Of a stretch of DNA of 64,000 nt, positions 3,752-61,297 are shown piece by piece. The DNA lies in assembly GCA_943736015.1 (NCBI GenBank), contig OX031065.1:52244992-52308991 (forward strand), read 5' to 3'. The notes beneath the pieces are model-generated. The model was not told where the DNA came from and made no database searches. It worked only from the letters and a program-made list of their open reading frames with translations. A program made the position numbers and the translations under genes. The stretch comes from Tridacna crocea. Taxonomy: Eukaryota > Mollusca > Bivalvia > Cardiida > Cardiidae. Within the stretch, counting starts at the first letter, position 1; the number at the start of each line of letters is the position of its first letter.

Positions 3752-5315
3752 AATGTAGAGTGGTGTTTCAGTTGCACTGTTGTCACATGTTGTGTCAGGG
3801 TTGCGAAATTGAACCTATTTGGCTAGATATCTTGATCTGTGTTTGGTTTAACGGACTGATTATGGTTACTTGACTTTATTATTGGGCCTAAATCCGAACC
3901 CAGTAATATCTGCCCTTTAGTCATATTCAACCCTTTGTCTATATATACTTACAAAATAACAAAACATTTACTGGATCAAGTCCCTGTACCTACAAGCAAA
4001 AGAAGATAAATTATAATAAATAGAAAGTGCTGCTTTCCAGCTTATGTCTTCTATCTTCAGTCTGAAAGTCTGCTCCAATGCTACTTTTTGTTTCTGGTCT
4101 TCGCAGACCTTCAGAGCAACGTTCATGAAACAGGTCTGGAATAAATACGATTTTACCCACATCTTTTGGAACAGCTCTAATGACAGCTAATAAGATGGGC
4201 ATGGATCGTTAAAAAATGATTAATCTTTGCAAAAAAACTGATGTTAGTTAATATCTAAATCTTACCTTCCAGGAGTGTAAAATGTTTTCTTTGTCTACTT
4301 GTCCTGTAGGACGAGTGGGTAGAAAAGTTACTTATGATTATCCGTATGACACTATCACTTGTCCCAACTTGAGGACTTGAATGACCATTTCTATTGAATA
4401 TACTATGGTATAAACAAAGCAGATGGTGTTTAATACCGACTTTCTTCTGGTGACTTGACTAGTAAACATGACCCGATCTAACAATAGAGGAACATTGCAG
4501 CATAGATCTTACAAGTATACTACTCTAACCAACGCCCACTCGTCACAATTTGGCCAATTCCGTACCTACATCTAATCTCGTCTGTATTACAGTCATTTCC
4601 ATTTGAACTAACATTCATGTGATTCTATATATATCACACCACTGACAGTCGTTTGACAATGACATAAACAGCATTGATGAAGTTATTCACATCTGTCTAT
4701 TTGTTGTTGAAAATTTTAATTGGGATATGATAAACCAATTTAAAAATGAATATAAATCTATAAAGTGTTTGTCATTTGTCATTTAAAATATATAAAGAAA
4801 GATTTTGACAGCAAAATGAATCTCAAGTTTTCCTTTGACATTGTTAGACGAGTCTTACAATTTTCAGAACAGTAAACCGGTGTTTTTCTGGGCGATGACA
4901 CTCGTCACAACTCGGCTGATTACATACTTGCATCTACAATTGATGGCTCCCATCACCTGAGGTATGTCGAATGGGGCGATAAATGTACCAATCTGCTCCA
5001 TATCAAGACGCCATGAACAGAAAACCCGTCAAGCACTTTACAGATGCGCATGCATAATAAACAAACATCCTGTATCATGATCACGAGACACTCTGGAATT
5101 TCACTTTTACTTTCGTTTTGTGTTCGCCGTGAAATAACTTGTAATTTGATTTTTACTTGACAAACTTAGAATTCAATAGTTATAAAATGTTATCGTCTGA
5201 CAGGATGAGCTTGGCATTTTTTCTACTTGCCTGAAGCCGAATGTTCTTGTCAATGAGAAGTCAAGTGGAATTTTACAACCCGGCCTTTGTGCAAATCTGT
5301 ACTTTTCAATGTAAA
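3752..5315. other. No gene seen
   Basis: AT-rich sequence with the family C fragment. GACGAGTGGG (4312) and its inverse CCCACTCGTC (4541) suggest an eroded element, but I cannot draw its borders. Confidence 0.4.
4053..4126. repeat. Family C fragment
   Basis: Diverged single-arm relative of the hairpin at 57006, sharing CTTCAGTCTGAAAG-like and CTGGTCTTCGC blocks, and extended by GCAGACCTTCAGAGCAACG. Confidence 0.55.
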
Positions 5316-18199: not shown

Positions 18200-21100
18200 C
18201 TGTTGAAAGAAAAAGTTAAGCAAGTAAATTTACTAACAAAATGAAATAATAAACATCTTTCTAAATATCAAATGACAAAGTTACATAAAAATTCTGAATT
18301 TGATATTTTAGTTAACTCTATACTAGACAAAAAAAGTTTTAGAGTTACCAATCTTGTAAGTATTTGCAGTAAACAAATGTGTCTTAACCCTTTACCAAAC
18401 AATCCATGGCTTTTCGACCCTGAGAAAGAAAAGCCTTTTGAAAACATTGTGGGAAAAGGAGAAAATGCTGGTAACCAGCATTTTCTCCTTTTCCCACAAT
18501 GTTTTCTACCCTGTTGGAAACCAATTTCAGTTTTTGAGTTATGTTCATTTTGTCTTCTGCAAGTGCTTTCAATTTGTACCAGTCTAAAATTTTGTTGTTT
18601 GGGAAAGGGTTAAATGACTTGTACTGGAATTTTTTTTTTTACACTTTATGTGTCCGTAACAACCAGATCCGTATTCACCAACCATTCTTGAGAACATCCC
18701 TGGGCTAATTCTGGATTTAAAAAGTAACACATCTTTTGATTGGCTTAACCATTGGGTTAAGCCAATCAGAAACTGTGTTACTTTCAAATTTAGAAATTTC
18801 TTGAGAATAACACAAAGAAAGCTTATATGAATTGTTGGTGGATAAGGACCCGGATCCAAACCTGAGGTCTCAATCTTTTCTCTTATCTCATGCAATGATA
18901 CAATTTCTTGGTCTTAAAGGAAAATATTAAATGAATCAATATTGTGCATTCAACTTTATCAAACAAAATACCCCACAAAGAATGATAAATGAAATAAGAG
19001 TCAAGAATAAATACATACATTGAAATTTCTATTCCTTTCTGTTCTTTAATGATCATTTTCACAGATTCTGATTCCTTTGCAACAGATACCAATAACAACA
19101 AGTAACAACTTCTAGTTTCTTCTGTTACACCGTTACCTGAATACAAAGATGTAAATTTTACACTTCAAATCTGGAAAGAGCAGTACTTAGAAAACCTCAA
19201 TGCAACATTCACATATTTTTAAAGATCAGAGAAATCTTACTAAAAATAAACAAGCATGTAATCAAATTGACTCTGTGACCTAAATTTTGACCCATCTAGG
19301 TCAGCTTCCAGAAGTAGAGGTAATCTGGCACCAAAATCTGGCAAAGATAATCAGTATCAGAACTACATGCTATCAAAATAATGACCTTGGATTAAAAAAA
19401 AAAAAACACATGTTTATGCCCAATAAAAATTATGCTGTCTGCAATATCTAGAGTTCTCTAGGAAAAATCATGGACCTCAAGGCTCATAGCTTAAATACTT
19501 TATGTTGCATCACCGTTTTTGGTCAATAGAAAAGTTGTTCAATTATGTCCAAAAAGTCAAAACTGGGCCTGCTTAACTCTTTACCAAACCACAAAATTTT
19601 AGACTTCTTCAAATTGAAAGCATTTGCAGATGACAAAATGTGACTCAAAAATTGAAACTTGACTTTAAAAGAGTAGAAAACATTGTAGGAATAGGAGAAA
19701 ATGCTGGTTACCAGGTTTTTATCCTTTCCTACAATGTTTTTAAAGGCTTCTTTCTATGGGTCCTTGAAAGTTTGGATTGTGTGGGAAAGAGTTTAGGGAG
19801 CGAAAGGCTGCAGAAAGGTACTGGTACATGTACATGGAATTAAATTTTTATTCTATAGTGAAAGACCTACAGCTCTGATTATTTGATGGTCCATACCTTT
19901 TTGTCATGGTGTATTGTTCAGTGTTTAAAAACTACAATACATTGCTTTTTTCTTCAAACTAGCAAAATAGGAGGGTGCTTTTGAAATGCAAGTATGACTG
20001 GTTAAAAGTGTCTAGGAATCTTTTAGAGTTTCTGATTATCATTTTTTAACTCCAGTTTACCTATTCTTCATACATACTGAAAATGTAACGGCTTGATCCT
20101 TTACCAAACAACCCCTGATTTTAAATGACCCTAAGGAAGAAGCCTTTTGAAAACATAGTGGGAAAAGGAGAAAATGCTGGTAACCAGCATTTTCTCTTTT
20201 TCTCGGGGTATTGTCTACTCTTCCAAAGTCCAGTTTCAATTTTTGATTCACATTTATTTTGTTGTGTACAAGTGCTTTAATTTGGACAAGTCTACCATTT
20301 TGTTATTTGGCAAAGAGTTAAATAAAAGAAAAGGCCACGCAAGGATATTTTTTGTGAAGTTTGGCTGAAAAAGGCCAAGGTATACAGGAATAGATGTTAA
20401 GAGAATTACTGAGGGTTGAAATTCAAGATCTATAAAAGGAAAGCATGAGCAAACCTTTGACTTCAAGGAGATTTTTCAATACATTTGATAGCCAACCAGA
20501 CTGCACAACCACTGATGTCAACTCCTTATAAAGTGGTATACACGAAGAGAAGGCTGCAAGAAAAACAACAAAACCACAGAGGTTTAAATCATTCAGCTCA
20601 CTGTGTCTCGTGTGTGTATGTTAATTAATAGGAAAACTTTTGTAATACATCATTTGAAAAGGTACAAGTTACACCATATTATGCAGTGAAATTATGTTCA
20701 ACCATTTCTAAATTATAAATAGCAAGACCACAACATACAGGTGCCAAGTGCTTTTAGAAATAAATTTATTTTCAGTAAACAATCTAAGTTGAAAATGGGG
20801 CATAAATGCCTCAAAAATACTTTGATAGTTACCTGCCAAACCGGTATGGGTTCTGCTGTTGCTAACATACAGCTAGTAAGACTTTGAGATCAATATCTAC
20901 AGTAATGACAGAGATATTATAAATTGTCAAAGTGTTTGTGTGACAACAACAAAGACAATTAGTCGAGCTAATAAGTCGAGCTAAAAATATTTTCATGGTT
21001 GAGTACTAAATGTCAAACCTCTTTTCATATTATGGGAGTCAAAAATTTATGTATTTATGAGTATAAATCAGACTTACATCTACTTTCATATGGAGTGCAA

Positions 21101-24100: not shown

Positions 24101-27100
24101 AAACAGAGATGAAAGGTACTTACATGTATAATGTTTAATGTTTTATTCACTTACAACATTATTTGGCCAGGGTACCCATCCAACCATTCAAGAATTCCGT
24201 ATACCAGTACTTTGCAAAACATTTTCTGTGTCAACTCACATATAATAGTATTAATTACTGATTTAGTTTAACCCTTCACAAGTCAATCCAAGGTTTTTAT
24301 GACCCTAAGAAATAAGCCTTCTGAAAATATTATGGAAAAAGGAGAAGGTAACCAGCATTTTCTTCTTTTCCTGCAATGTTTTCTACCCTTCAAATATCAA
24401 TTTGTTAGTCACATAAATTTTGTTGTCTGCAAATGCTTTCAATGTGGACAAGTCTAGAGTTAAATTGTTTAGTAAAGAGTTAAGAAAGATGACCGATACA
24501 TTACTGTATCACTCACCACTACAAACCAGAACTTTACAAGTACACCTAAGAGTTTGCTCTAGTGACTGATTTTCAACAGAATTACACCATAAAATACAGT
24601 AATTATCCCAAACAGATTGAAATATATGAGTCTGGCAAAAGGTAAAGCAATATACATACATCAATAAATGCCAAAGATTCAGTGCAAAATAACTACTATG
24701 GCTTTTTTTACCTCTGGCTTTTTTACCTAGATTCATAATTACAGATCTATAAGATCTTGTTGAACAAATGTCTGAATCATAGGAAAGACTGGTTCTTTGA
24801 TAGACAAAAAAGTTTCAACCCAGGTCAGCCTGCTTTGTACATGCATTCTAACCGTGGTCAATACTTTTTGCACTTGTAATAAACCCCCTTTTCCATACAC
24901 ATGGCTCAAAAACATAATGAAGCAACAAAAAATGAAGATCATTCAGCAATGGAAGCGATACCTTATGTTTTTCTTTGACTGAAATATTAAATGCCTTTTA
25001 AGATTAACTTCTAAAGTACTAATCATAATGTCTGTTGATTTTGCTGCTAGTGTAGATCAAGATCAGACTGCCCACTCTCCAACACTGGGGCTAAGTGTGT
25101 TGTCAGAATGTATGATCTTGAATCTTCACAGTCTACTATGTTGAATCTACACTATCCACATTTCTGGACAAACAGTGCTGTAATAGAGCTTCTTCAGTTC
25201 TGTCCTTCATGACTGATACTCAGTATCAATCTGCTAAGAAAGATATCAGTGCATAATTTTCAGGCTGTCTTGGCCATCATTTTCTCCAGTACCAAATGAT
25301 GGGTTTTTCCTCTCACTCAAACAATAAAAGTTTACACTGGTCCAAAAGGATAAATGAGAGACTGGACTGTGTAGTAAGGGGCTCATTTCTTCCAGCACCA
25401 AGTTTCTAGACTCAACCTTTTTTGACCATTGAAACTCTAAGAGAGCTCTACCTTGCAGGCTTGACTATGCAAACCGATGGTATAGATCCAAGATCAGACT
25501 TCGTCGTCTTTGTTGACCTATGCCACTTCCAAAAGCCGCTCCTTTTGCCCTTTGAGGCTGAATGTTACCCCTTTACCACACTATCCTGACTTTTAGCAAC
25601 TCTCACTAGAATAAACCCATTACGACTGAATCCCTACTTTTGACACCCCTGGAAAAGAAGCCTTTTGAAAACATTGTGGGTAAAGGAGAAAATGCTGGAA
25701 ACCAGCATTTTCTCCTTTTCCCACAATGTTTTCTAACTAATCAATAAGCAATTGCACCATTTGAGCCACACTGAAATTGTCATCTGCAAATGCTTTCAAT
25801 TTGGACAGAGCTAAAATTTTGTCCTCTGGTAGAGGGTTAACTTCTAAAAACTTTGTCAGAAAAGGAAAAATGCTGGTAACCAGCATTTTCTCCTTTTCCC
25901 CCAATGTTTGCTACCATTTCACAGACAAACAACATGATTTAAGTCACACATAAGTTGTTGACTGCAATTACATTTGATTTGAACAAGACAGAGTAAACTA
26001 GCATGAGGACTTTCTTCAGCCTGTGAAATATGAATCAATTAAAAGAAGAAAAACTGGACTCACCAGCAACCTGAATACCTTTCACAGTAAGAAGTAGAAT
26101 ATGGCTGAACTCTTCGTATTTCGTGACTACATCAGGTTCTACTATTGTCAAATTTAGGAATATGTTACATAGTATCACAATACTGGACTGAAAGCGAAGA
26201 CAGACAGAAAATTTTGAGCAAAAACTGTAGTGTAACATTCTTAACCCTTTCCCAAACAATCCCTGGTTTTTACGGGTCTGGAATAGTAGCCTTTTGAAAA
26301 CATTGTGAGAAAAGGAGAAAATGCTGGTAACCAGCATTTTCTCCTTTTCCCACAATTTTTTCTACTCTATCATAGACAGAAATCATCTTTTTCAGCAAGA
26401 GTTGAATTGTTGTCTGCAAATGCTTTCAATTTGATCTAGTCCAAAAGTTTGTCGTTTGGGAAAGGGTTAATACGACTTCTCGAATTTACATTTCTGTGCT
26501 ATAATCACAACAAAATTCTGCTGTTACCAAGTTAGTATTAATTTATATTGGAGTTGAAATTTCTGGTAAAGTTCTTTTCCATTCCATGAAATACTATGTC
26601 CAAAATATTGCATAAATCAACTTACATTAATAATTTACCTCCTGAAACAAATCTAAAGGAGAGAGCTTTGAAAGCATCCTTTCAAATTAGGGCTTACCAA
26701 ACCTAAGTGTGATAAGACAAATGACTAAATTTTAATCATCCCAGTTTCTCTTTTTTCCAAATCATTTTCAGAGACTGCTCTAGGAGAAAAGAGATTTGAA
26801 AGGAATTGTTGTGAAATAGCACCTAACAGACAATTTCAGTGAGCTATCCATGGCAGGGTCAGCTATAAGTGAAGGCTTATTGCTAGAATTCACAGATTGG
26901 ACTTTTATGCCACTTTCAACATTATGATAGTTATATCATAGCTACAACTGGCTCCTTTACCTCTGTCCCAAGTTTCACCAGTACTTAGCAAGGATTCTGA
27001 CAAATATGAAACTCCCAGTGCATTTAGTGAGGGCTGATTCCCATGCCTCTAGCTTCCATACCTTCCCTGCGTAGCTATGCCTATCCTATACTATAGTCAC

Positions 27101-30100
27101 ATCAGCTAAGGAATTCCTATGTAAGATTTAACTCGTTACCAAAAGACAATATTTTTAGACTGGTCCAAACTGAAAGCATTTGCAGACGACACGACGCTGG
27201 TTACCAGCATTTTATCCTTTTCCCCCAATGTTTTCAGAAGACTTCTTTCTCAGGGTCGTTAAAAGTCTGGATTGTGTGGTAAATAGTTCATTACCATCAC
27301 ATCAATAACTATACATGTTGACACACATGAAGGCTATATGACTTGCAACATGCGAAAAGGGACACTCAGACATTTGCGTAAAGTGTCGTCTCGAATCAGC
27401 CTGCGCAGTCCGCGCAGGCTAATCCGAGACGGCACTTTACAGCTATATTAGATTTTCTGCTTCAGTATACTTGCACAAGACAGAAAATTGCTTAAAAACG
27501 GAAAGTGTCGCCTCGGATTAGCCTGCGCAGGCTGATCCGAGACGACACTTTACGCAAATGTCCGAGTGTCCCTTTTCGCGTGTTGCAGGCCATATATGAA
27601 CCATGATCTCGCAGAGCGGGGTTCAATGCACCTCTGTGACTATACAAAGCAACTGACAGAATGGTCCTTGGACATGCAGAAAATTTATAAAGAGCACAAA
27701 GTGTTGACCCATGTCAGCAGGTTGACATGGGCCCATACTTTTTAAGAGATGCATTATGCTTCCTTTTCAGAGAACATGGTGCACAGGGTTTTCCCTCGGC
27801 TTTGAAAATTGGGGGTCATTGTGACCCCCTTCCTCATTAGTTGCGGGTCATTTCATTAATTTTGGGGGTCAAAAATATGGATTTCCTCATCATCAACTTC
27901 AAACACGATTTACAATGCATTTTACCTTTGAACGCAAACTTCCAAAATTGAAAAGTCGGTCGATCATTTCTGACGGAAAGCCGGATGTCACTTTTTGACA
28001 GACCAAACATTTTCGTCTGAATCGCTGCTTGACGTGGTTGTAGGAAGCAGACGATAGAAGAATGCTACAGTTTTCTTCGTCATGACATCTTTCCGCTAAC
28101 AGCACAGACCGGTAATGTGTACTTTTATATACCAGAAGTCGTGTAAAATATGCAATGAAATACAGAGAACCCAACCACGACTTTGACTGGGCCCATATTT
28201 ACGTCACGTGTCCAATATACATTTCGGCAATAATGCGTTAACCAGTCTTATTCCATAAATAAATTACCGGAAAACCACTTTTATCTAAAATAAACCCAGT
28301 TGTTAAAAAAAGAACTGTGTTCGTCTGACATTGAAGCAAGAACAAGCTTGGAATTATGACGCTTCAGTCAACTTCGTACATTATTTAGATTTTGGAAAGT
28401 TGCGTCACCGATGACGCACTGTCATTTATTTTGGGGGTCATTTGAATTAAAATTGCGTCAATGACGCAGGATTTGTGCGTCATGGAAAACCCTGGTGCAT
28501 ATTATTGTAAGTACCTGTACTTCTCTGTTGGCTGGCATCTTCAGGAAATTTTCCCATTGCTTCCACATGTATAAATCCAGTAAACCAAGAGCACCACAAT
28601 TGAGCAGTATTTCACGGGGAATTTCATCTGCAGTCATGTGACATAATCCAGGCAAAAGGAAATGAAATATGTTCACACGTAAATGCAAGTTTAATAATTC
28701 TCGATCTGAAAGCACAGCCTTATTATCTTCTGCAATGTTTCGTAATACTTTCACATCATATACTTCTTCATAATCCTTTTTCATATTTAAACCATTTTCA
28801 GTCTGTAATTTAGAATCAGAATTGTTTAAGTTTTTACTCTGACCACCATCTGTATCTTTGAAGGTCACTTGTTTTCTTTCTTTCAAACTTTTGTCTTTAG
28901 ATAGTTTATCACAATCATCATTTACTGTCAATATTCTGTTCCCAACATCTCTTATTTCTGAATCTTGATTTGAGAGTTTAACACCTCCTAGAGTTTTTGC
29001 TATTAACTCGTCATCATTATTTGTAATCTGTGCATGATCTCCAACTGCTGTAGCCGTCTGATTTATATCCTCTGACTGAACTGGACTTGTTGTTGTATTT
29101 AATACATTGGTAAAGTCATTTTGAGCATTAACCTCTGCTGAATGGCAGTATTCATCTGTACTTTCTCCATTGCTGATTGGGAGGCAAAGTTTACTGTAAC
29201 AGAATACACATCAATAGATGTACATCTTATTATATTAATCTGCAAGCACTCAATGGCCAATTTAAACAAAGATTTTATAAAAAGAGTTTATGCATGTATA
29301 TGTACAAATATATATTAATGTGCACATGTCCACACAAAAGTATACAATGATTATGGTCTATTTCAAATGTCTATGTTTTAAAGCAAGATACAATGATTAA
29401 TTTTTCACATTTACAATCATATTTCAAGGTCATAAGTTCAAAGTGTCATAAGTTCAAAGTCAACCCAAATTATGTAAAGACCTGGGTTAGAGTCCTGTCT
29501 CTCGAGTACATGCAAAATAAAGCAGTAATCTGACACAATTGTTTTTTTTTATTTAACAAATGAACACCACATACCAGAGGTACAAGGACTGGGAAAGTGA
29601 GTAACTTAGCCAATCCCCCTGCCGCCCCCCCCCCCCCCCCCCCCCCCCCCCACTGCTGGTTGCCTTGTCACTGAATCAGGCAATAATTTAACTCTTTACT
29701 AAACAATCCCGAAATTTAACAGACATGTGGAAAAAGCCTTTTAAAAACGCATATAGTGAGAAAAGGAGAAAATGCTGGTAATCAGCATTTTCTTCTTTTT
29801 CCACACAATTTTCTACCCTCTCGATGACAAATTCCATTACTGCAGCCATGTTTATCCCTTTACCAATCGACAAAAAGTTACTTGCCCCTTTCAGTTCCTT
29901 TTTTTTTTTTTTGCAAACAATTGTCCAAGTTTGAAATAAATATCATCTGTAATTACAGGTATATTACATAATGTAGAAGTTTTCATACTGTCACAACGCA
30001 GAAGACAACACCAGGGCTATGACAATAACTGTTCCTTTTCTTCGAAAACTTTGAGCTAACAACCATAATGGAGCAGCAATTCCAATGATAGGAAAGCTTG

Positions 30101-33100
30101 CTATAAGATTTCAGACAAACTGGTTTTAAACTTAAGGTGGAGAAGAGAACAGAGAATTGTGTCTACACACAGGCAGACAGGTCAGTATACCTCTTACTTT
30201 CTGATGGGGGGAGTACAATAGAGGAAAAAAAAAAGATAAAGAAAAAAACTCACCTGACTTGTACAAGAAAGGGAATTAGATTACACACCTCAGTTTTCAA
30301 AGCTGATGTTTCCTCAGCCATCCATGCTGCTAGGATACGAATCGTTGCCAGTACCACACTGTTCCACTGGATGTACATGAAGAAAAAACTGACATTACGC
30401 AATGTTAGACTCACAAACAAAACATGAACACAAAAAAGTAATCTACTGCTGTCCACATTCTATCATCCGATTAAGTCCGTTTCTCTTAACTGCTTTTAAT
30501 GGTTTGCGTTTATCAATATTGTATTTTCAAAAATCAGATTTTAAATGTAGGAATATCGCCGATGAAACAATTGACAAGAAAATGAGACAAGGGAAAAGGT
30601 TCAATCATAAAGCATAAATAAATGAAATGGACTTCCTCCGTCATGATAAACTCCTATACTTATAAAGTATTTTCCTTTTGCCAAAATATTCCACAAAATA
30701 GCAGATGTGTAAATCAAGGATCAGACTACAGCTTCTGTGAGGTCTGATCATGACCTATGTCTGATCATGACCCATATTGTTTGGATAAGCAACTGGGGTT
30801 GTAGTAAGAACTCTAAAATAATGAAAAGTAATGAAAACAATGAACCTGTATAGTGGCATCAGCTTCAACTCGCTTTAGGAAATGAACAACAGCACTAAAG
30901 GCACCAGTTAAAGCAGAATGGAGCTGTAAAATTTGTCTTTCATCAAAGTGCAGGTTTGAGCTTGTGGTCAGATGATTTATAACACTTTCCAGATAACTGT
31001 AGCAGGATGACAGTAGGTGACCATTACTAAAAGCCTGCAAGAACATGGAAAAGTAAACATCACTATCAAACCATTATCGTTAACTCTTTACCAAATGACA
31101 AAATTTTGGACCAGTCAAAATTGAAAGCATTTACAGACAGCAAAAGAATTTTGAGTGAAAAATTAAAATTTTGATATGGAAAGGGTAGAAAACATTGTGG
31201 GAAAAGGAAAAAATGCTGGCTACCAGCATTTTCTCCTTTTCCCACAATGATTTTAAAAGGCTTCTTTCTCAGGTTCTTTAAAAGTCGGGATTTTGTGGTA
31301 AAGACTTAAACATTAGTCAATCTATATTCTGACCAGTTGTTTCTTATTGTGTTGCTTTTCACAGAGAATGCAAAAAACTTGATGGTAACTACAAAGCTAG
31401 TAATCATTTGGTTGTAACCTCAAATACAAAGAAAAATTCTCTCTTGGTATAATGACAGTCATTCTTGCAAGAATCAGTCCTGCTCATGGCTGAACACTAT
31501 TTAAAATTTTTCCCATGTGAAGAAGGCCTACCAAGACATTCAAAGAGATAATGCTGGAAACCAGCAGTTCCTATGTTTCCCATAATTTTTGCTACCTTTT
31601 AAAAGACCGAAATCTTCATGAGCTCTATATTTGATTGTCTACAATAGCCTAGCTTTCTGACTTGTCCATTACAAAATTTGTCATCTGGTTAAGAGTTAAC
31701 TTTTTAAATTCTGTGGGCAACAGGGGCTTTTGTAGACAAGGTAGATCAAGATCAGACAGTGCTGTCAGATCAATGATCAAACCTGTCCACTTTTCTGTGT
31801 TGTTTTTGCAGATTTCAGCCTTGAAATTGCTACAGGCAAATTTGTCTACTTTCAAATGGTACATATGCTCAGCAATTTTGTGTTAGAGAGCCTTTAACTC
31901 TTTACCAAACAACAAAAAATTAGACATTTTGGATGGGGAAGAAAACGTTGTGAGAAAAGGAGAAAATGCTGGTTATCAGCACTTTCTCCTTTTCCCACAA
32001 TGTTTTCAAAAGGCTTCTTATACTTGCGTGTTAAAAATCATGATTGTGTGGTACAGAGTTAAAAGAAATAGAAAACAAGAGGGCCATTGGCCCTGGAACG
32101 CTCACCTTAGACTATAGCTTATGAGTGAAATTCAATTCTTTGAGCAACTTTGGTAAAGCTTCACCCAAGGAACATCCCTGCCAAGTTGCATCAAGATTGG
32201 CCCAGTGGGTTAGGAGAAGATGTTTAAAGAAACTGTTGACGGAAGACAGACACCGGACATAGGGCAATCAAATATCATAAAGCTCTACACCTTCAAGTTT
32301 CAAAGAAGAACTATACATTTTCCTTTTTTGTCCTATGTTCGAACTTGTGGTCCCCGGGGCTGGGTCAGTTTTAACCAAAGCAGCATCCTTGGAACAAACT
32401 TGGTAGAGGTCCACTCAAAGATGCTACATACCAAGTATCAAGGCTCTACACCTTTCCGTTTAAGAGAAAAAGAAATTTAAAATTTTCCTTCTTTGTTCCT
32501 ATGTTCCAACCTGTGACCTCCGGGGCAGGGCCGGTTTAAACGCCAGGGACATCATATGACCAAACTTGGTAGAGGTCCACTAGAAGATTCTGCATACCAA
32601 ATATCAAAGCTCTGCACCTTCAAGTTTCAGAGAAGATTTCTAAAGCTTTCCTTCTTTGTTGCTATGTTCCAACCTGTGACCTCCCGAGGCAGGGCCAGTT
32701 TTGACCCCAAGGGCACAATATGAACAAACTTGGTAGAGATCCACTAGGAATTGCTACATGCCAAATATCATAGCTCTATGCCTTCTAGTTACAGAGAAGA
32801 AGAATCTTAAAATTTTCTTTCATTGTTCCTATGTTTGAACTTGTGACCCCCTGGGCAGGGCCAGTTTTGACCCCACTGGCATGATTTGAACAAATTTGGT
32901 AGAGGTCCACTAGGAGATGCCACATACCAAATATCAAAGCTCTATGCCATCTAGTTTCAGAGAAGAAGAAATATAAAGTTTTCCTTCTTTGTTCCTATGC
33001 TCAAACTAGTGACCCCGGGGTGGGGCCAGATTTGACCCCAGGGACATTATTTGAATAAACTTGGTAGAGGTCCACTAGGAGATACAAAAGACCAAATATC

Positions 33101-39100: not shown

Positions 39101-42100
39101 CATGTCATCCTGACTGTAAAACATATATTTGTAATAATGTTCATTCAAGTTTACTGACTGTGGTAAGGCCCAGTAGCTCCACTATTAATATACAATGCTA
39201 TTAATCCATGGGTCATCAAAAAAAAGTCCAGTTCGACCTACATGCATTCCAGGAGTTACTTTACCATTTCTACCCTTTCCAATACACTGGCTACCTCTTT
39301 ACATAAACAAAAATGAGAATTTATTTAGTGATGAAAGAGGCCACAATTACTGTCATCAGTCCTACAAAAAAATAGGCCAAAATGGTTGGTATAGTTCAAC
39401 GATCAGACTGCAAGTTGTTACGGGAGACCACTCCTTCCTGCATGGCATATACTCCCGATTTAAATACAATACCTGGCTACTGCGTCAGAGAGATATCTCT
39501 TTGGCTCAGTGGTTAGGGTATTGGCTTTGCGTCCGGGAGTTCGGAGTTCGAATCCCGCTCCGATCCTTATTTCTGCCATGCATTTATTCATTTGTTTCTT
39601 TGTTGCGGACTTTGTTCGTAAGATGGGGGCTCGTCCTGGATTGGCCATTGAGCCATTAATCCCATTTGTTGTCCAAAATTGGACTTCCTGCCTAATAAGG
39701 CTTTGAGTCATCAATAAATGATGACTTTAAGAGGGGGTGTGTTACGGGAGACCACTCCTTCCTGCATGGCATATACTCCCGATTTAAATACAATACCTGG
39801 CTACTGCGTCAGAGAGATATCTCTTTGGCTCAGTGGTTAGGGTATTGGCTTTGCGTCCGGGAGTTCGGAGTTCGAATCCCGCTCCGATCCTTATTTCTGC
39901 CATGCATTTATTCATTTGTTTCTTTGTTGCGGACTTTGTTCGTAAGAAAGTACTGCGAGTCTTAGAACTGCCTCCACAGGATCACCTTCAGTTTCGTTCG
40001 CATTGGAGTTTTGAGCCATTTTAACAGCTTAAGTCATATCATGGCAGTCAGTGATGCACCCAAGTGTTTCCTTGCTTTCTCAAACCAGTACTGACACAAC
40101 TTTCTTTCCAGAGCCACTGATTGCTTTCTCACATGTATCAGAAAAATATCTGGAAAGAAAGTTCGCAGCAACTGGTTATCAAATCCTCAACCTCTACATC
40201 ACCAGTCAGATAGGCTAACCAGTGGGCTTTCTGGCCGGGCAGATCACCTTGAGAAAATGTTTCTTGAACTCTTTACCACACCATCCCGACTATTAACAAA
40301 ACTGAGAAAGAAAGCCTTTGAATACATTGTGGGAAAATACTGGTAGCCAGCATTTTCTCCTTTCCCCACAATATTTTCTACCCTTTCCAAATCAAATTTC
40401 AATTTTTAACTCAAATTTACTATGTCGTCTGAAAAGGTGTACAATATAGACTGGTCCAAAATTTTGAGTGTGGTAGAAAGTTAAGACTACTGAACCCTTT
40501 TCAAAATCTTAAAAGCTAAAGCAAGACTACATCAAACTCTTTTGAGACATCACCAAAACAAACAATCTGACCAAGTTTGAAGAGTATAAGGATGTAAATG
40601 TGGCCTCTAAAGCATACACAAGTTTTTTCTAATTTTTTACCCAGTGACCTAGTTTTTGATTCCACATGACCCATTTTCAAACTCGTTCAAGGTATCACCA
40701 AGACAAATATTATGAACAAGTTTCACGAGTATCAGACTGAAAATGTGTCCTCCATAGCATACACAATAGCATTTGACCTATTGACGTAGTTTTTTACCCA
40801 ACATGACCCATTTTCATACCCATCCAAGATATTATCAAGGCAAACATTCTGACCAATTTTCAAGAGTGTTGGACTGAAAATGTGTCCTCCAGAACATATA
40901 GAAGGTTTTTCTAAGTTTTGACCTGGTAACCTAGTTTTTGACCCAACATGACTCATTTTCAAACTCGTCTGCGATATCATCAAGACAAAGATTCTGACCA
41001 ACTTACGAAGGTTTTGGACTGAAAATGTGGCCTCTAGAGTGTACACAATGTTTTTCTTTGATCTGACCTAGTGACCTAGTTTTTGACCGACATGACCCAT
41101 TTTCGAACTCACCCGAGATTTTATTGAGACAAACATTCTGACCAAGTTTCATGAGTATCGGACAGTGTGGTCTCTAAAGCATACATAAGGTAAGAGTTGA
41201 TGCATGACAACGCACAACGGACGCCAGACACAGTGCGATCACAATAGCTCACCATGAGCACTTCGTGCTCAGGATTGATGAGCTCACAAAAAAGTATTTA
41301 AAATACCTTGGATTAAGTAACACAATTCCATGGCAGCTTGTCATATTATCTTTGAGAACTGGTTGTAGAGCCTGAAAACATAGTCAAACAATGCAATACT
41401 CAAACTGGTAGCTTGATAATAAAAGATCCATATGAAAAACCTTTCCAAAAACTTTTTGGGAAAAGAAAAAAACATCTAGAACCAGCATTTTCTTTTCCAC
41501 TCTAGAGCAAGCTAGCCAGACATGCATGTAATCTCAAGTGGAAAAGAAGGAACAATCCTCGTCTCCATGATTTATGAATTGATTACAATAAAGAGCACAG
41601 AACAAGTTCAATGAAGTAAAAAGGGAAGAAAAGGTAACTCTCCTAAATTCTCTCCATATATCTAAATATTCTCAGCGAGTTTTGTACCCGATATTGCTCT
41701 TCACTCAGTCTTGACCAACATCATAGGCTATTAACCCTTTACTCCATAGATACTCATATTTAAATATTGCTTGTGGGAGCCTTTGGAAAACATTGTGGCA
41801 AAAGGTGAAACTGCTTGTGACAAGCAATTTCACCTTTTGTCACAATGTTTTCTATGCTACCAAAAGGTGTCATATACACATAAGAAACGGCTTCATCCTT
41901 GCTGTTATTTAGGGTCAATTAGAGATACCATACTAGAAATGCCTTATGGGGTAAAGGTTTAACAATAGGGCATCCTAATGAGATTCATGTAATATCACCT
42001 TCCATTGCCAAAATCATACTGATTCCACTAGGACTCAGGTTAATCCATATCAATGCAGGGAACCAGCATTTATTGTATAGGTGGAAATTTTTGTGAAGTG

Positions 42101-45100
42101 GAAATTTTTGCGATTTCGTGAATTGGGAAAGTTTGTAAACTTTTCTGTTTGCATATTTTACTACATGTATACCAACAAATGAAGAATCCCTTGAGTTCAC
42201 ATACATTTCAGTACCCAAAATGTCCAATGTAATTAGCAAAATTTTTGTCACACACATATATATATATCCACATGTACAGTAATTTGACAATGGATTACCA
42301 ATTACAAAGGTTTCCTGGCAATGAAAGGCAATGAATCATTATCAAGAATCCCATTGAATCTATCCTTGAGGTGTGGTACCTCATGCAGCTAATGAGCTTA
42401 TGGAGAAAAATGAGGTGACCCTGACTGATTCTCAAACCAATGACCCATCAATCACTGACTGTACAACTGCTCAACAAAGTAAGCTACCAGATCACTTCCT
42501 CCCAAGCAAAATGGTTTACAAAACTGTTTGACCTAAAATATATGTAGATAGCTCCATTATTTACCTCATTACCAAATAACAAAACTCTAGATTTGTCCAA
42601 ATTGAAAGCATTTGCAGACGACAACATAAATTTGAAATTTGTTTTGTAAAGGGTAGAAAACATTTTCTCCTTTTCCCACAATGTTTTCTAAAGGTTTCTT
42701 TTTCAGGGTCCTCAAAAGTATGGATTGTGTGGTAATGGATTAAGTATGTTCCAGTATACTTAAATACATGTATATGTATGTTTAGAGAGATAGAGTGAGT
42801 CTGTATAGAAGCTCTTTCTTTAGGGACAAATCCCATCTTTTGGGCAGCACTTGATTTATTGTCTGTAAATGCATTTGATGTGCGCAAAACTGTAGATTTT
42901 TTTGTTACATGTTTATGAATTACAGAAGCAAAATTAACAGGGATGGCCAGGTGGACTCTACAGTCATTTTGGTATCAAACCTACATCATCCTTCTGTGAA
43001 GACAAAAAAATCTAAATAATGAATGACTCACCATTTCTGGCTGACTGCACAGAGCCGACAAGATGGATATTGCCACCGACTTGTAAATATTTGGTGGACA
43101 ATCATCAGGGACTGTTTCTACAATAACAAATGGACTACTATTATTGTTTATCGCACTTGACACATTTTCCATAAGAGCTATGCTCTGTAAAAATGGGGTT
43201 TAACGCATCTCTGTGATGCATTATACCGAGCAGTTATCCTAAAACAACAAGATTTAAGGTTTGTCTGAATCGAAAGCATTTGCAGACAACAAAATGAAAG
43301 TGATTGAAAATTTGAAATTTGGTTTGTGAAGGGTAGAAAACATTGTGGTAAAAGGAGAAAATGCTGGTTACCAGCATTTCCTCCTTTTCCCATAATGTTT
43401 TCTAAAGGCTTCTTTCTCTGGGATGTCAAAAGAAGGGATTGTGTGGTAATGGGTTAAACTCAAAATTTGTATAACAACTAACAGTTACTGCATCATGAAA
43501 TTGAGTGAACCTAGGTCATGCAGGATACAGTATTTACAAATAGCAAGTTTCAACCCATGTCAGCCTGCTATGACTGCACAGGGTGATATGGGTCTATGCA
43601 GATTTTTGCAGATACATAAAGCCCCCCTATTTACCAAGCATGGCTCATAATTATTGAGAAACAATGTTTTATAGAGATTGAACTTGTTAACTCTTTACCA
43701 AACGATAAAGTTTTGGACTGGTCCAAATTGAAATCATCTGAAGACAACAATTTCAAAGTGGCTCAAATGGTACAATTTTGCTTTGATAGGGTAGAAAACT
43801 TTGTGGGAAAAGGAGAAAATGCTGGTTACCTGCATTTTCTCCTTTTCCCACAATGTTTTCAAAAGGCTTCTTCCTCAGGAGCATTGAAAGTCGTAATTGT
43901 GTGGTAAAGGGTTAACTCTTTACCAAACGACAAAATTTTAGACTGGTCCAAATTGAAAGCATTTGCGGTTGAAAAACAAAATGTGGCTCAAAGGTAGAAA
44001 ACATTGTAGGAAATGGAGAAAATGCTGGTTCTAACAATGTTTTCAAAAGGCTTCTTTCTATAGTCGTTAAAAGTCGGGATTGTGTGGTATAGAGTTAACA
44101 GAGGACAAGATTTATACTTTTCTATACTGACAGCATTAATCTTTGCAGACCATAATGTAAGGTACATCAAACAACAGAATTTGCCTTCAAGAGAGCAGAA
44201 AATACTGCTGGGAAAGAAGAAAATTCTCGCTTCAGACAAGTTCCCCCTCTGCTTCAGGCTTATAAAAACACAGAAAGCTTTGGTAAAGTTTATCTTTACA
44301 AATAAGAGATACAAAAGGCTATTTTTTTACCATTACCTACTACACTAGCATGCAATGATAACTAGATTATAATCCCCACCAGCTGCTTGTCCCAAAAACA
44401 GGTCTTTATAATAGAATACAGATTGTTTTATTACAAAAGTAAGATTGGAAGAAAGACCAAGGGGAGATAATTCTGCAACAAATCGCAGCAGGGTCATGAA
44501 AATTGCTTATGCACAACTTCATACATATAGGAACACTGTGTGTGAATTTGAGTACAGTACCTTATAATGTATTATAGTATTTCACAGGAAAAATTTATTT
44601 CTACAAACAGACGGACGAACAGAAGGATGAACAGATGGACGGACAAACAGCCATGGCGATTCCAGTTTACCCCCCTCAACTTCCTTGTGGGAGGTATAAA
44701 AATATGTATGTCTACAAGCGTATAAAGTTTAGAACATAACACAGCTTTAACTGAAATTTGCGAAGGTCTACCAAAATATACAGAATAGTATGTTCAGAGC
44801 AGTTGATGACCCTTTTGAAAGCTGTTTGCTAAATCAGTACAAGGCTGGGACTCTACTATGCCATGCCTAAGGACACTTCAAAAAAAACAAAAAAACTGAT
44901 TGCTTCTGGCGAGGACTGAACCAGAACTATCTTAACCTTTGAACTGACAGGACAACAGAACATATGAACTGTCAACTTCCGGTATTACAAAAGTGTTATT
45001 AGAGAAAACTGTACCTTGAGGCAGACTAATAAACATATACATCAACATATATACATAAAGAATCAAACTAACTTACTTGTTTTCAGGAGTCTGGAAAAGA

Positions 45101-46462: not shown

Positions 46463-46633
46463 ATGGCAGGAATGGAATTGCTGTCTGATCAAGGATTTAG
46501 AATTGATGGTAGAAAGCCAACTGAGCTTAGGAAAATTCAGTGTAAAATGGGTGTTTTTAGTCAAGCTGATGGCTCTGCATACATTGAACATGGAAACACA
46601 AAAGTTCTTGCAGCTGTATATGGACCACATGAG
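46463..46633 (+). CDS. EXOSC4: EXOSC4 exon 1
   Basis: 57 codons from [11 protein letters not shown] to VYGPHE. Donor GAG-GTTCGT. The ATG aligns with the human start (MAGLELLSDQG). Confidence 0.96.
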
Positions 46634-49600
46634 GTTCGTAACCAAGAAAACTCGCACCAAAATTTTAGACTTGTCCACATTAACTCATTACCAAACGATA
46701 ATATTTTAGGCATGTCTAAATCGAAAGCAATTGCAGACAACAAAATTAAAGTGACTGAAAATTCGAAATTTGTTTTGTGAAGGGTAGAAAACACTGTGGA
46801 AAAAGGAGAAAATGCTGGTTACCAGCATTTTCTCCTTTTCCCACAGTGTTTTCAAAAGGCTTCTTTCTCAGGGGCATCAAAAGTAGGGATTGTGTGGTAA
46901 TAGGATAAAGGCTGTTACAGGTGTCAAATTTGATTTTATACAAATGGTGTGTGGGAAAAAGAAGAAAATGCTAGTGACCAGAATTTTCTGGTTTTGCCCC
47001 GGTATTTCAGAAGCCTTTTTTTTCTTCCCTTTTCTCTTTGTAAAGGACAGTAAGACAGACCCGTCGGAAGAAAATTTCATTTGGTCCGGCCAGTATTGGT
47101 CTGGCCATTTTTCATTTTTGGCCGAAAATTGGCTTCCGACGGCCTTGTAAGATTGTGTGGAAGACAGTATTATACAACTGATAAAAATTAGAGCTTTCTA
47201 TATGATTACACCAAGATTCAACCTTCTATTAGACAACAAAAGTTAAGGTATTACCATCCTAATGCTTGTAGTGCAAAATGGAATTAAATTTTGTATTAGA
47301 TGATAAATAAGATTTATACTTAACCCATTACCACACAATCCCTACTTTTGACGACCCTGAGAAAGAAGCCTTTAGAAAACATTCTGGGAAAAGGAGAAAA
47401 TGCTGGTAACCAGCATTTTCTCCTTTTCCCACAATGTTTTCTACCCTTCACAAAACAAATTTCAAATTTTCAGTCACTTTTATTTTGTCGTCTGCAAATG
47501 CTTTCGATTTGGACAAACCTATACTATTGTCGTTTGGTAATGAGTTAAATAATATTTTTGCACATTTCTTACCGCTAGAAATTCCTTTGATACCCATCTT
47601 GAAATTATTTGTTGAGATTTTTGCTAGCTTTGAGAAAAGGGAGGTAATTGTTATCTCCCTTTGTAATGAGAATAGAATGGTCCTAGATTTATAAGTGATA
47701 ATTCTAGGATGGAAAAAAATGGAAAAAGTAGCTTGGTCAAAGTAAAACAATACTCATTTTCAATCATTGCAACTTTTTTAGGATAATGTTATCGTGGAAA
47801 TAGCTGTTTGCTGTTTTCCTTTAGAATGGTACTACCTCAAGACTTCTCCAAATGCAAGTACTGTATATCCATTCAACAAGTTGAATGTGACTAAAATGAC
47901 AAAACTTGCAATGAAATGGTGGAAACACTGTTCAAAAGGAAAAAATACTGATTTTCCATGATGTCCCTCAACATTTTCAATAGACTTTCTACTCATATTT
48001 TCATGTAAGTAGTTAAACTCAGGGTTGTTCCGTTAATTGGCTCTTTGAAAAGGAACAAAGCTGAAATGTTATGTCTAAAACCAAGCTTATCTAGGCCTAT
48101 AAACTCACATAATCTTGATCCTGATGGAGAAGGCTTTTGAAACATTGTTGGAAAAGAAGAAACAATGGTGAACCAGCAGGTTTTATTTTTCAATTACACA
48201 TCTTTTCTTCTCAAATTTAAATTTGCACTTTTGACAATTTCCCAAAGGACAAATATTAAGAAACTCTGAAATTGCAAGCATCTGCAGAAGACAATCTTGA
48301 AATGAGACAAATCAGCTAAAGTTCTCTTTTGAGGTAGAAAGCATTATGGGAAACGGAGAAATTGATGGTTACAAGCATTTTATCTTTTTCCCACAATGTA
48401 TTGAAAAGGTTTCATCCTCAGGGTTGTTATTGCGTGGCAAAGGGTTGAGTCACATCTTACATGCGCTTGTCGCTTGCAAGTTTATGTTTTCAATTTTAAC
48501 CCTTTACCCCATAAGGCATTTCTATGGTATCTCTAATTGACCCTAAATAACAGCAAGGATGAAGCCATTTCTTATATGTATATGAGACCTTTTGAAAGCA
48601 TAGAAAACATTGTGACAAAAGGTGAAATTGCTCGTCACGAGCAATTTCACCTTTTGCCACAATGTTTTCCAATGGCTCCTACAAGCAATTTGTGGAAATG
48701 AGTATCTATGGAGTAAAGGGTTAATGAGTCTGAAATTGTAATGCCTGGTAAAGGTTTTGATTTATTTTATTTTCATCTCTTTACAGATCACTGGAAGTAG
48801 ATCAAAAGCTCTCCATGACAAGGTTCTCGTAAATTGTCAATACAGTATGGCAACTTTTAGTACAGGAGAGAGAAAAAGACGACCACGAGGGGACAGGAAA
48901 TCAAAGGAAATGACAATGCATCTGCAACAAACTTTTGATGCTGCAATTCTAACTAGCCTGTATCCACGATCTCAAATTGATATTTTTGTTGAGGTTCTAG
49001 ATTATGCTTATTAGTCATTTTTGTTTTAATTCTTCACTAGAAGAAGCCTGAATTTTAACAAGACAAAAGGCTTTCGAAAACATTGTGGGTTTGGAGAAAA
49101 TGCAGGTAAATAGCATTCTCGCAAAATGTCATTTAGACAAATGTGTGGTAAACATGTGTATATACAATGTATAGGAAAGATTTTTTTTTTAATGTATTAC
49201 TGATCTCGGAGAAAAATCAACCATATACTGAATGTTCTTTTTTTTATACACACAAAAAAAAATTATAAAATTCTGACGTTATAAATTATATTATTTGAGC
49301 AACATTAATTTTAATCTGTCCTGAAATGCTTCCGATGGGTACAACTTAACTCATTACCAAACGACAAAATTTTAGACTAGTCCAAATTGAAAACACAGGC
49401 AAATGACAAAATTAACGTAACTGAAAAGCTGAAATTTGTTTCCAGCTGGGTAGAAAACATTGTGGGAAAAGGAGAAAATGCTGGTTACCAGCATTTTATC
49501 CTTTTCCCTCAATGTTTTCTAAAGGCTTCTTTCTCAGGGGCGTCAAAAGTAGGGATTGTGTGGTAATGGGTTAAAAATCCGATGCAAGAACTCATATTGT

Positions 49601-50048
49601 ACTCTTGTCTATTACAAGCTACTGTACTACTTCATACATCATATTTATAATGTGTACACTGATAAATAACATTTCATTAAATCAGGTTTTACAGTCAGAT
49701 GGTGGAAACTACTGTGCAAGCGTGAATGCAGCAACCTTAGCTCTGATAGATGCAGGGATACCTCTGAGGGACTTTGTGTGTGCCTGTTCTGCAAGCTTTG
49801 TGAATGATAAACCTATTCTAGACATTTGCTACATAGAAGAATCATCAGGTGGGGCGGAGTTGATCGTGGCTACTTTACCGAAATCCGAACAGATAGTGTT
49901 TCTAGAAATGAACTCCAGACTTCACGAAGACAACTTGAGTACTGTATTAGATCTTGCAGTGAAAGGTTGTAAAGATATTCATGATGTTTTAAATCAAGCT
50001 GTGAGAGACCATGTTGGAGAGGTAGCAAGTGTGGTAGAGTTGGAATAG
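46463..50048 (+). CDS. EXOSC4: EXOSC4 / RRP41 exosome core subunit, whole coding span (3 exons, 246 aa)
   Basis: EXOSC4 (Rrp41) is one of six RNase PH-fold subunits of the ring of the RNA exosome, the 3'-to-5' RNA processing and decay complex of nucleus and cytoplasm. It pairs with EXOSC9 and is catalytically inactive in animals. The predicted 246 residues compare with 245 in human, nearly collinear: [20 protein letters not shown] near the N-terminus, [52 protein letters not shown] with [12 protein letters not shown], and LLEM-type ILFLEM-like [11 protein letters not shown] near the C-terminus. Three phase-0 exons join cleanly. It is divergently arranged with NCDN and probably shares a promoter region with it. 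Both introns carry family A MITEs. Confidence 0.97.
46652..46679 (+). mobile_element. Family A terminal fragment
   Basis: CCAAAATTTTAGACTTGTCC is the left interior of an older copy, now directly abutting the intact copy at 46680. Confidence 0.6.
46680..46908 (+). mobile_element. Family A MITE, full length, in EXOSC4 intron 1
   Basis: Left TTAA at 46680; right end decayed to ATAA. It carries the paired ACTGTG/CAGTG change. Confidence 0.9.
46930..47030 (+). mobile_element. Family A remnant
   Basis: Degraded stem GTGTGGGAAAAAGAAG, ATGCTAGTGACCAGAATTTT. Confidence 0.45.
47060..47146. repeat. Small foldback, 87 bp
   Basis: CCGTCGGAAG at the left and CTTCCGACGG at the right, with inner GGCCA motifs facing each other, in EXOSC4 intron 1. 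Confidence 0.45.
47320..47548 (-). mobile_element. Family A MITE, full length, in EXOSC4 intron 1
   Basis: TTAA at 47320 and 47545; a single stem change (ATTCTGGG). Confidence 0.92.
47830..48005 (+). mobile_element. Probable family A remnant
   Basis: TCCAAATGCAAG, GAAACACTGTTCAAAAGG and AACATTTTCAATAG are in family order but weak. Confidence 0.35.
48100..48235 (-). mobile_element. Probable family A remnant
   Basis: CTGATGGAGAAGGCTTTTGA, AACATTGTTGGAAAAG and GTGAACCAGCAGG survive. Confidence 0.4.
48236..48448 (+). mobile_element. Family A MITE, decayed
   Basis: The stem is recognisable (GCATTATGGGAAACGGAG, TTTTTCCCACAATG); the end GGCAAAGGGTTGA has lost its TTAA. Confidence 0.65.
48496..48724 (+). 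mobile_element. Family B TTAA hairpin MITE, copy B3
   Basis: TTAA at 48496 and 48721. The apex is CTCGTCACGAG where B1 and B2 have CTTGT-ACAAG, a paired change. It lies 62 bp before EXOSC4 exon 2. Confidence 0.85.
48787..48993 (+). CDS. EXOSC4: EXOSC4 exon 2
   Basis: 69 codons, from [20 protein letters not shown] through [10 protein letters not shown]. Acceptor CTTTACAG; donor GAG-GTTCTA. It holds the conserved [10 protein letters not shown] stretch of the RNase PH fold. Confidence 0.96.
49046..49140 (-). mobile_element. Family A remnant in EXOSC4 intron 2
   Basis: AGGCTTTCGAAAACATTGTG and GGAGAAAATGCAGGTAAATA only. Confidence 0.45.
49346..49574 (+). mobile_element. Family A MITE, full length, in EXOSC4 intron 2
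   Basis: TTAA at 49346 and 49571. It ends 111 bp before exon 3. Confidence 0.92.
49686..50048 (+). CDS. EXOSC4: EXOSC4 exon 3, terminal
   Basis: 120 codons and stop TAG, from [20 protein letters not shown] to [11 protein letters not shown]. The acceptor AAATCAG was chosen over a CAG 9 bp further in because it restores the conserved VLQSDGG. A family A MITE begins 17 nt after the stop. Confidence 0.96.
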   Translation, partial: VLQSDGGNYCASVNAATLALIDAGIPLRDFVCACSASFVNDKPILDICYIEESSGGAELIVATLPKSEQIVFLEMNSRLHEDNLSTVLDLAVKGCKDIHDVLNQAVRDHVGEVASVVELE

Positions 50049-60470: not shown

Positions 60471-60861
60471 TTAAAAAAAGAAAAAGAACGTTTTTGAACG
60501 ATAAATCCCATCATTTGTACAACTTTGGATCAATATGGCGAAATAATACCGTATACATATATGTTAATGTTTCAGAATGTGGTTTTGGTAGTCGGAGCAA
60601 ACGACATATGTTACAAAACTCCAGAGAACGGGTCATTAATTTACACCTAGTTATGTATGGTGTTCATTACAAACAGAATTCTTACGATGTTTTTTTTTTA
60701 TACAATATAAATTTCTTGCATTACTATGTATTGTTTTAAATTTTTTTTTTTTTTGTTATAAAGATAGGTAGATATTTAGAGTGGCATTGAAATAATGACA
60801 ATAAATATGTATACAATACAGTTTGCTTTCTTCTTCAATCACATGTCATAATTCGATTGTT

Positions 60862-61165
60862 TGTTGATTGATTGCTTGTATGCAGTTTCAACATTATTTC
60901 AGTTATATTGCGGCAGCCAGTGCACCTATCCGTGCTTTCCTTGCGTTTCTTTAACCTACACAAGCCAATGGCTGCTTTCCCACATAACCATCGTCGAAAC
61001 AATGATCAGCGGTGAGAGAGGAATGAATCCTGTCACCGGGGATCGAACCCACGACCATTTGTTATAAAGAAGTGCACGCTAACGACTAAGCTACCAGGGC
61101 CGGGGATCGAGCTCTCCACCCTTTCTTCTCGAGTCCTGCACGCTACCGAATAAGCTACCGGGGCT
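60862..61165 (-). mobile_element. SINE S7 with two tandem tRNA-like heads
   Basis: On the minus strand two heads follow one another. The outer has CGGTAGCTTATTCGGTAGCG and GAGCTCGATCCCC. The inner has GGTAGCTTAGTCGTTAGCG and GGGTTCGATCCCC. The body then has CAATATAACTGAAATAATG. It is inside the MULE-like element. Confidence 0.7.
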
Positions 61166-61297
61166 CGGCCCATGATTGAATTTATACTTTCCTCATAACA
61201 TATGAAAATGAAACACAAGGTTCTCTAAATCAATTGAAAGCGTATTTGGTGAACCTCGAGTCTCTATTTTAAACATGGACCGTATACATCCCTGTAA

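Follow-up and report, generated by a model that had tools for sequence, protein, structure and literature searches.

Structure of the element and its neighbourhood

The window, by which we mean the whole stretch of 64,000 nt that was analysed, contains a TRIM of 532 bp at positions 39416-39947, that is a short LTR element with a primer-binding site (PBS) and a polypurine tract (PPT) and without proteins of its own, as in the Helenus elements discussed below. All parts are read on the plus strand. The sequence AAGT stands directly on both sides of it (39412-39415 and 39948-39951) as a 4-bp target-site duplication (TSD), deduced from reading the flanks. Repeat alignment placed the 5' LTR (TGTTAC...GTAAGA) at 39416-39623 and the 3' LTR, of the same sequence, at 39740-39947; in the comparison by BLAST the two repeats of 208 bp were 100% identical. 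The internal region of 116 bp (39624-39739) opens with a tRNA-Pro PBS (39624-39641) and closes, directly before the 3' LTR, with the PPT AAGAGGGGGTG (39729-39739), recognised by reading of the sequence. In this respect, the original prediction of identical 208-bp LTRs, an AAGT duplication, a PPT and 116 bp inside was correct in coordinates and identity. The predicted 18-nt proline-tRNA primer site does abut the 5' LTR, but in this copy it shows 17/18 matches to what we take to be the complement of the tRNA-Pro 3' end. This mismatch is private to the copy, as 28 of the 30 nearest copies (counting this one) match at 18/18 positions.

Several shorter motifs could be identified within these parts. 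The 5' LTR holds an A box, TGGCTCAGTGG (39502-39512), matching exactly, and a B box, AGTTCGAATCC (39545-39555), with one mismatch to the consensus sequences that we presume for these boxes; the corresponding boxes of the 3' LTR start at 39826 and 39869. Taking the A box to begin at position 8 of a tRNA, a tRNA-like region would extend over 39495-39570. About 36 nt upstream of this inferred start lies a TATA-like sequence, TTTAAATA (39459-39466), which would suit Pol II as well. Three TVTTT motifs, namely TATTT at 39568, TGTTT at 39593 and TCTTT at 39597 (together 39568-39601), are candidate leaky Pol III terminators. An AATAAA is located at 39713 in the internal region, upstream of the PPT. 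The internal region as a whole folds better than its shuffles (z -2.37), and a 9-bp hairpin around AGTCATCA-ATAAA-TGATGACT is predicted just upstream of the PPT and might serve in packaging or dimerisation.

Regarding the neighbours, exons of RRP41/EXOSC4 were found at about 46464-50048 on the plus strand and neurochondrin-like exons at 28461-31073 on the minus strand, the latter reading frame having one protein match in the protein search. Close relatives of the two proteins come from a common source, where both lie on contigs of 2,480,997 bases that are probably one and the same. A SINE-like repeat at 60841-61180 on the minus strand consists of two tandem tRNA-like heads, one of them with an A/B pair at no more than one mismatch each, and a short CAATCAATCAA-type tail. 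The best named matches of the RRP41 of the window were from Mactra antiquata and Mya arenaria, of which we take Mya to be a heterodont. In a tree of 17 rows it stood together with Mactra, Mya and Dreissena, with supports of 90/83 for a group of seven rows and 89/86 for a group of four rows with Mactra, values that are moderate and come from a bootstrap that had not settled. Mactridae and Dreissenidae are listed under Heterodonta (PMC6934838). Because of this grouping, the host is probably a heterodont bivalve.

A second, older copy in the window

When the LTR and the internal region were compared with the rest of the window by BLAST, a second copy appeared at 2224-2887, likewise on the plus strand and flanked by a TSD of its own, ACTA (2220-2223 and 2888-2891). 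Its 5' LTR (2224-2578) is interrupted by a transposon right behind the A box and has lost part of its remaining sequence. The internal region (2579-2693) is 87.8% identical to that of the first copy, has gained a T5 run and is not predicted to form the hairpin described above. The 3' LTR (2694-2887) is 80.4% identical and its B box has changed from TTCGAA to TTTAAA, so that the central CpG is gone. Of the 11 CpG sites of the first copy's LTR, the second copy retains one, and the observed/expected ratio of CpG is 0.82 in the first copy, 0.52 in the window and 0.28 in the second copy. Judged by these changes, the second copy looks decayed and dead.

The transposon within its 5' LTR is a TTAA-flanked MITE (2323-2543, with TTAA at 2319-2322 and 2544-2547). 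This MITE family of about 220 bp is extremely dense in the window, where it occupies 63 merged places and 9602 bases (further examples at 43707-43907 and 25618-25821). Its core is a 67-bp near-perfect palindrome with often 90-97% matches, and whole-length matches amount to about 72-89%.

The family in the genome

To describe the family beyond the window, the own genome of the host was searched (1,048,827,098 bases or 1.05 Gb, in 31 contigs). Of 1571 first-look candidates 40 were scored, and all 40 were full length at 98-100% identity; one partial match was listed in addition. The promoter segment of the LTR (26 nt, at most one mismatch) occurs at 4417 genomic places and the exact junction of LTR and PBS at 1956, with controls of 0 in both cases. 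Patterns of the TRIM family gave 0 matches in viral contigs (four patterns) and in genome contigs (one pattern).

Among the 30 nearest copies, which were selected by similarity and include the copy at 39416-39947, the TSD pair is identical in 28, this copy among them, and the other two pairs differ at one base. The two LTRs show 0/208 differences in 18 of these copies and at most 3/208 in the others. Each of the 30 has a tRNA-Pro PBS after its first repeat, and in 28 the match is exact (18/18). As a selection by similarity favours young copies, a second set was taken in order of position. It consists of the 30 exact PBS sites that head the listing, which all lie on contig C1, and comprises 23 TRIM sites and 7 others. 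For the TSD count, four of the 23 (L033, L034, L035 and L054) were dropped, being without two full LTRs, and the TSDs match in 16 of the remaining 19 rows, or in 15 of 17 distinct places, two arrays having been counted twice.

A further sample consisted of 20 LTR sites without a neighbour at the usual spacing, picked from the first 100 LTR segments listed. Thirteen of these apparently single sites are solo LTRs, each with a 4-bp TSD, six have an internal region after all and one is a fragment; there were no free SINE-like units among the 20. At three or more places (one with a broken first LTR) elements are arranged as LTR-internal-LTR-internal-LTR. Tandem arrays of this kind were identified at L051/L052, L056/L057, L058 and C1:8601442-8602450; the outer TSDs match in L056/L057 and L058, which have full outer LTRs, and do not match in L051/L052.

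Joining the two flanks of an insertion reconstructs the site as it would have been before. In the window and the fetched loci, uninterrupted repeats span the junction for 9 of 28 copies, five of them gap-free, a spanning match being one that extends 20 bp or more to either side of the junction. As an example, the joined flank of copy L002 matches window positions 18471-18617 over 147 bp. Judged from these alignments, the matches are paralogous empty sites. Neither of the two refuting results named with the original prediction, the second of which concerned an orthologous empty site, was encountered; the empty sites seen here are paralogous, exist for part of the copies and were not found for the copy at 39416-39947 itself in the window and the fetched loci.

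Altogether, the TRIM family is large, recently amplified and recently mobile. The recent mobility that had been predicted from the single copy is supported by near-identical copies throughout the genome, their TSDs, the 18 of 30 identical LTR pairs and the solo LTRs, and the proposed copy count with TSDs yielded the 28 identical pairs and 1956 junctions given above.

A candidate autonomous partner

The seven sites of the position-ordered set on contig C1 that are not of the TRIM all belong to one LTR family (L061-L067). Its LTRs are about 561 bp long, start with TGTTATGTAC and end with ACTCGTAACA, and the pairs are 98-100% alike. The PPT is AAGGGGGGAAG, with one G fewer in L065, a copy incomplete at the fetched end. 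Six copies were fetched with both ends; in all six the TSDs are identical, and these copies measure 6.2-8.1 kb. Reading-frame pieces of L062 and L064 matched Pfam domains in the order SCAN, zinc knuckle (a match below Pfam's own cut-off), integrase and RT, and in L062 an RNase H follows downstream of RT. Thus, these pieces combine a SCAN-type Gag with an integrase before RT, an order that we take to be the hallmark of Gmr1. Both features liken the family to Gmr1-like Gypsy elements, and it differs from those compared in its mollusc host, the placement in the clade being taken from domains and their order. The SCAN domain in Gag is known from Gmr1-like Gypsy elements (PMC4131045, PMC3424704). 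This is a recently active autonomous SCAN-type (Gmr1-like) Gypsy family in a mollusc.

This family is quite probably the helper of the TRIM, as far as sequence comparison can tell. The junction of its LTR with the PBS occurs at 737 genomic places (control 0), and together with the 1956 TRIM junctions this nearly equals the 2790 places of an exact tRNA-Pro PBS, where the junction patterns use the first 13 PBS bases only and the junction and PBS sets are not strictly nested. Both families share an identical block of 21 nt at the PBS (E 1e-6), of which only about 3 nt lie beyond the tRNA, because 18 nt are fixed by the tRNA-Pro complement. The tips of the LTRs are alike (TGTTA...GTAA[G/C]A) and the TSD length is equal. 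The LTR bodies gave only short matches at chance level, and there is no other internal sequence in common; the PBS of the TRIM abuts the LTR, whereas that of the Gypsy family lies 5 nt further in. A preference for target sites was considered as an additional tie, but the base bias in the TSDs of the nearest 30 TRIM copies, with A as the first TSD base in 19 and T as the last in 18, is too weak for this.

Mobilisation by some other autonomous element would fit LTR bodies that resemble each other by chance only and a common internal sequence reduced to a block that is mostly fixed by the tRNA; besides, the survey of Gypsy elements covered tRNA-Pro-primed sites. Against such another helper speak the sampled non-TRIM tRNA-Pro sites, which are of the SCAN-type family in 7/7 cases, the two junction counts that nearly reach the number of exact PBS sites, and the equal TSD length, similar LTR tips and recent activity of both families, so that we regard it as unlikely. 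In the case of the SCAN-type family, a search for autonomous elements with matching LTR, PBS and PPT, as had been suggested, returned the PBS block but no matching LTR body. The idea of movement in trans by an autonomous relative is supported by this candidate, whose likeness to the TRIM comprises the PBS block, the LTR tips and the TSD length and not the body of the LTR. Such sharing without the LTR body agrees with the discussion in PMC10886601, where it is considered that trans-mobilisation may not need LTR homology.

The tRNA-like segment and probable transcription by Pol III

As predicted, A- and B-box-like motifs are present at tRNA spacing in each LTR, the A box exact and the B box with one mismatch. 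When the window strand was shuffled 60 times with its dinucleotides preserved, no pair of this quality (up to one mismatch per box, tRNA spacing) arose, and apart from the element the window has a single further pair, near 61093 in the separate SINE-like repeat of the minus strand. ARAGORN at its default threshold called 0 tRNAs in the 64,000-nt window, and cmscan with Rfam gave 0 hits at the gathering threshold in the window and 0 at E values up to 10 on the element. With a lowered threshold, ARAGORN proposed one tRNA-Asn-like structure of score 33 per LTR, among equally weak calls of many kinds, and the folding of the tRNA-like region is not unusual against background (z -0.05). Because neither ARAGORN nor Rfam made a tRNA call at default threshold, the segment, as judged by these programs, is a promoter-like remnant and not a recognisable tRNA gene.

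This segment is well kept. The A box of the 5' LTR and both B boxes are unchanged in 30/30 nearest copies. A comparison of the 29 copies that have the same length showed the least variability for the tRNA-like region of the 5' LTR (0.0019 versus 0.0056-0.0113 elsewhere, with region limits that were set by us).

The second line of evidence is the distribution of T4 runs. In mammalian cells, T4 runs act as short terminators of Pol III transcription (PMC8466645), and the yeast enzyme is only weakly stopped by T4 (PMC9278858). On the sense strand, T4 runs number 0 in 30/30 nearest copies, 0 in 19/19 rows of the position-ordered set and 0 in 13/13 solo LTRs. Sorted by identity to the copy at 39416-39947, segments of the fetched loci at 90% or above have 0 in 12,903 bases and those below 90% have 7 in 2,245, where the LTR bin below 80% may include a chance antisense self-match of the LTR, its base count being approximate. 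By comparison, the density is 13.6 per kb in the flanks and 9.8-10.6 per kb in six copies of the SCAN-type family. Within the unique 324 bp of the copy at 39416-39947, 0 sense T4 runs were observed versus 3.35 expected (P 0.0038; LTR alone P 0.026, internal region alone P 0.35), and the antisense strand has 1 versus 0.50 expected. Background windows matched for T content were free of T4 in 48 of 3421 cases (1.4%). This test was chosen post hoc, after the data had been seen, the copies are related by descent, and on unique sequence the effect is modest.

An element that Pol III has to traverse in full should be free of T4, and the young copies are. Read-through of the 5' LTR by Pol III is thus supported at the level of sequence. 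Regarding where transcription might stop, TVTTT motifs have been described as moderate terminators in mammalian SINEs (PMC8466645). Those of the TRIM, at LTR positions 153, 178 and 182, are unchanged in 29/30 5' LTRs and are retained in the 3' LTR of the copy at 2224-2887; a comparison with shuffles showed no enrichment of these motifs (P 0.17). A model of leaky terminators is put forward here as a proposal.

These observations also bear on the view that the element is an ordinary Pol II TRIM, its tRNA-like segment being a fragment captured from a SINE or a tRNA that no longer acts as a promoter. The TATA-like TTTAAATA upstream of the tRNA-like start, the lack of a default-threshold tRNA call and the internal AATAAA before the PPT would fit such an element. 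A captured fragment agrees poorly, on the other hand, with the intact boxes in all 30 near copies, the lowest variability of just this region and the absence of sense T4 from young copies, against a density of about 10 per kb in the Gypsy family; the AATAAA stands outside the LTR, where the poly(A) signal of an LTR-to-LTR Pol II transcript would be expected. Transcription by Pol II alone is therefore doubtful in our opinion, and we consider it fairly probable, from the boxes and the T4 pattern, that active copies are transcribed by Pol III.

Comparison with known systems

TRIMs with tRNA-like LTRs were named Helenus by Kojima 2024 (PMC10886601) and are described there from six animal phyla, with bivalve families listed from Pteriomorphia only. 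According to the same source, animal Helenus elements have 4-bp TSDs and presumed Gypsy partners, the PBSs in bivalves include tRNA-Pro, tandem arrays and solo LTRs occur, and the age estimate of over 470 My rests on Pteriomorphia (PMC10886601). The idea of a parallel invention, raised in the original prediction for an animal TRIM with a promoter of tRNA type, thus finds no support, as the kind was already described. Our TRIM resembles Helenus in the A and B boxes of its LTRs, the PBS, PPT, 4-bp TSD, tRNA-Pro, arrays and solo LTRs. In detail, the PBS for the 3' end of tRNA-Pro matches at 18/18 positions in 28/30 copies and the 4-bp TSD is found in 28/30 nearest copies and 16/19 position-ordered rows; likeness to a tRNA-derived LTR sequence exists at the level of the boxes only. 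Because all testable defining features are present, the TRIM belongs to the already described Helenus kind, assigned by described features and not by a match to a consensus sequence. It differs from the published bivalve Helenus in that its host looks heterodont, whereas those listed are from Pteriomorphia only, and its B box reads AGTTC versus the conserved GGTTC of Helenus (PMC10886601). The word 'Heterodonta' is absent from the main text of that paper, and the literature searched contained no heterodont Helenus. In the same main text a terminator is named only for Cassandra and a depletion of T4 runs is not discussed.

Other TRIMs share some of these features. Cassandra of plants and Ajax of nemerteans are TRIMs whose LTRs contain a 5S rRNA-derived sequence that is, or resembles, a Pol III promoter, and the RNA of Cassandra runs from the 5' LTR to the 3' LTR (PMC10886601). 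The likeness lies in a Pol III promoter or promoter-like sequence within the LTRs of a TRIM; the difference is that this sequence is tRNA-derived in our case and 5S rRNA-derived in theirs. Identity with either was rejected, there being no Rfam match of any kind in the window or the element. The bivalve biv-TRIM (Satovic 2019, PMC6934838) has repeats of 202-218 bp, tandem arrays and solo repeats, an internal region of 77-80 bp, a PPT that is mostly GGGGAGA, a conserved TGATCCCAAAGGAC and no clear PBS. Here the length class of the repeats, the arrays and the solo repeats agree, in contrast to the internal region of 116 bp, the PPT AAGAGGGGGTG and the clear tRNA-Pro PBS. As TGATCCCAAAGGAC is absent from the TRIM within 3 mismatches and the internal lengths differ (116 versus 77-80 bp), identity with biv-TRIM was rejected as well.

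Identity with a SINE was likewise rejected on the LTR pairs and the 4-bp TSDs at 28/30 full and 13/13 solo copies. A reading of the 208-bp unit as a SINE, with two such SINEs lying next to each other by chance or in tandem, is very improbable in spite of a tRNA-like head similar to that of a SINE, given the tRNA-Pro PBS after the first repeat in 30/30 nearest copies (28 of them exact), the TSDs just mentioned and arrays with the LTR-internal-LTR-internal-LTR pattern of LTR elements. The TRIM is not a free SINE because all 13 solo LTRs carry 4-bp TSDs; accordingly, the expectation under which the 208-bp unit would always be a free SINE was contradicted, the examined copies being either paired with a PBS or solo with 4-bp TSDs.

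Proposed mechanism and significance

Taken on its sequence features, the element at 39416-39947 is almost certainly a Helenus-type TRIM (TRIMp3), i.e. non-autonomous and with a tRNA-derived internal Pol III promoter in its LTRs. As a whole, the explanation that we find best, and highly probable, is that of a Helenus-type TRIM whose RNA is made by Pol III and which uses the SCAN-type Gypsy family as helper. Pol III would start near the tRNA-like start at about 39495 in the 5' LTR, read across the T4-free element into the 3' LTR and stop either within this LTR or in the flanking DNA, where leaky TVTTT sites may be the signal. Such an LTR-to-LTR transcript would result in an R region common to both RNA ends. 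The SCAN-type (Gmr1-like) Gypsy element may then provide the Gag that packages this RNA and the RT that copies it from a tRNA-Pro primer, and the integrase of this helper would insert the TRIM with 4-bp duplications.

A more specific version of this mechanism is tentative. A heterodont Helenus might parasitise a SCAN-type Gypsy element by means of little beyond the PBS and the LTR tips; as it would be purged of strong Pol III terminators, Pol III might pass a leaky one in the 5' LTR and stop at its counterpart in the 3' LTR, thus making R regions. If true, this would be a Pol III counterpart of retroviral LTRs that ignore their first poly(A) signal, and trans-mobilisation would be shown to need no LTR homology.

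To date, Helenus has been a bioinformatic definition with a predicted transcription by Pol III, mostly without a matched autonomous partner. What is likely new here is a Helenus-type TRIM that resides together with its likely autonomous partner in one genome. LTR segments of the TRIM, many of which are young, number in the thousands in this one genome, and candidate-helper junctions with the same PBS in the hundreds. The co-residence makes two questions testable: whether Pol III can be the maker of the genomic RNA of an animal LTR element, and which cis sequence lets the TRIM hijack its helper. Finally, if the host is a heterodont, the range of Helenus in bivalves would extend beyond Pteriomorphia, the basis of the age estimate of more than 470 My.
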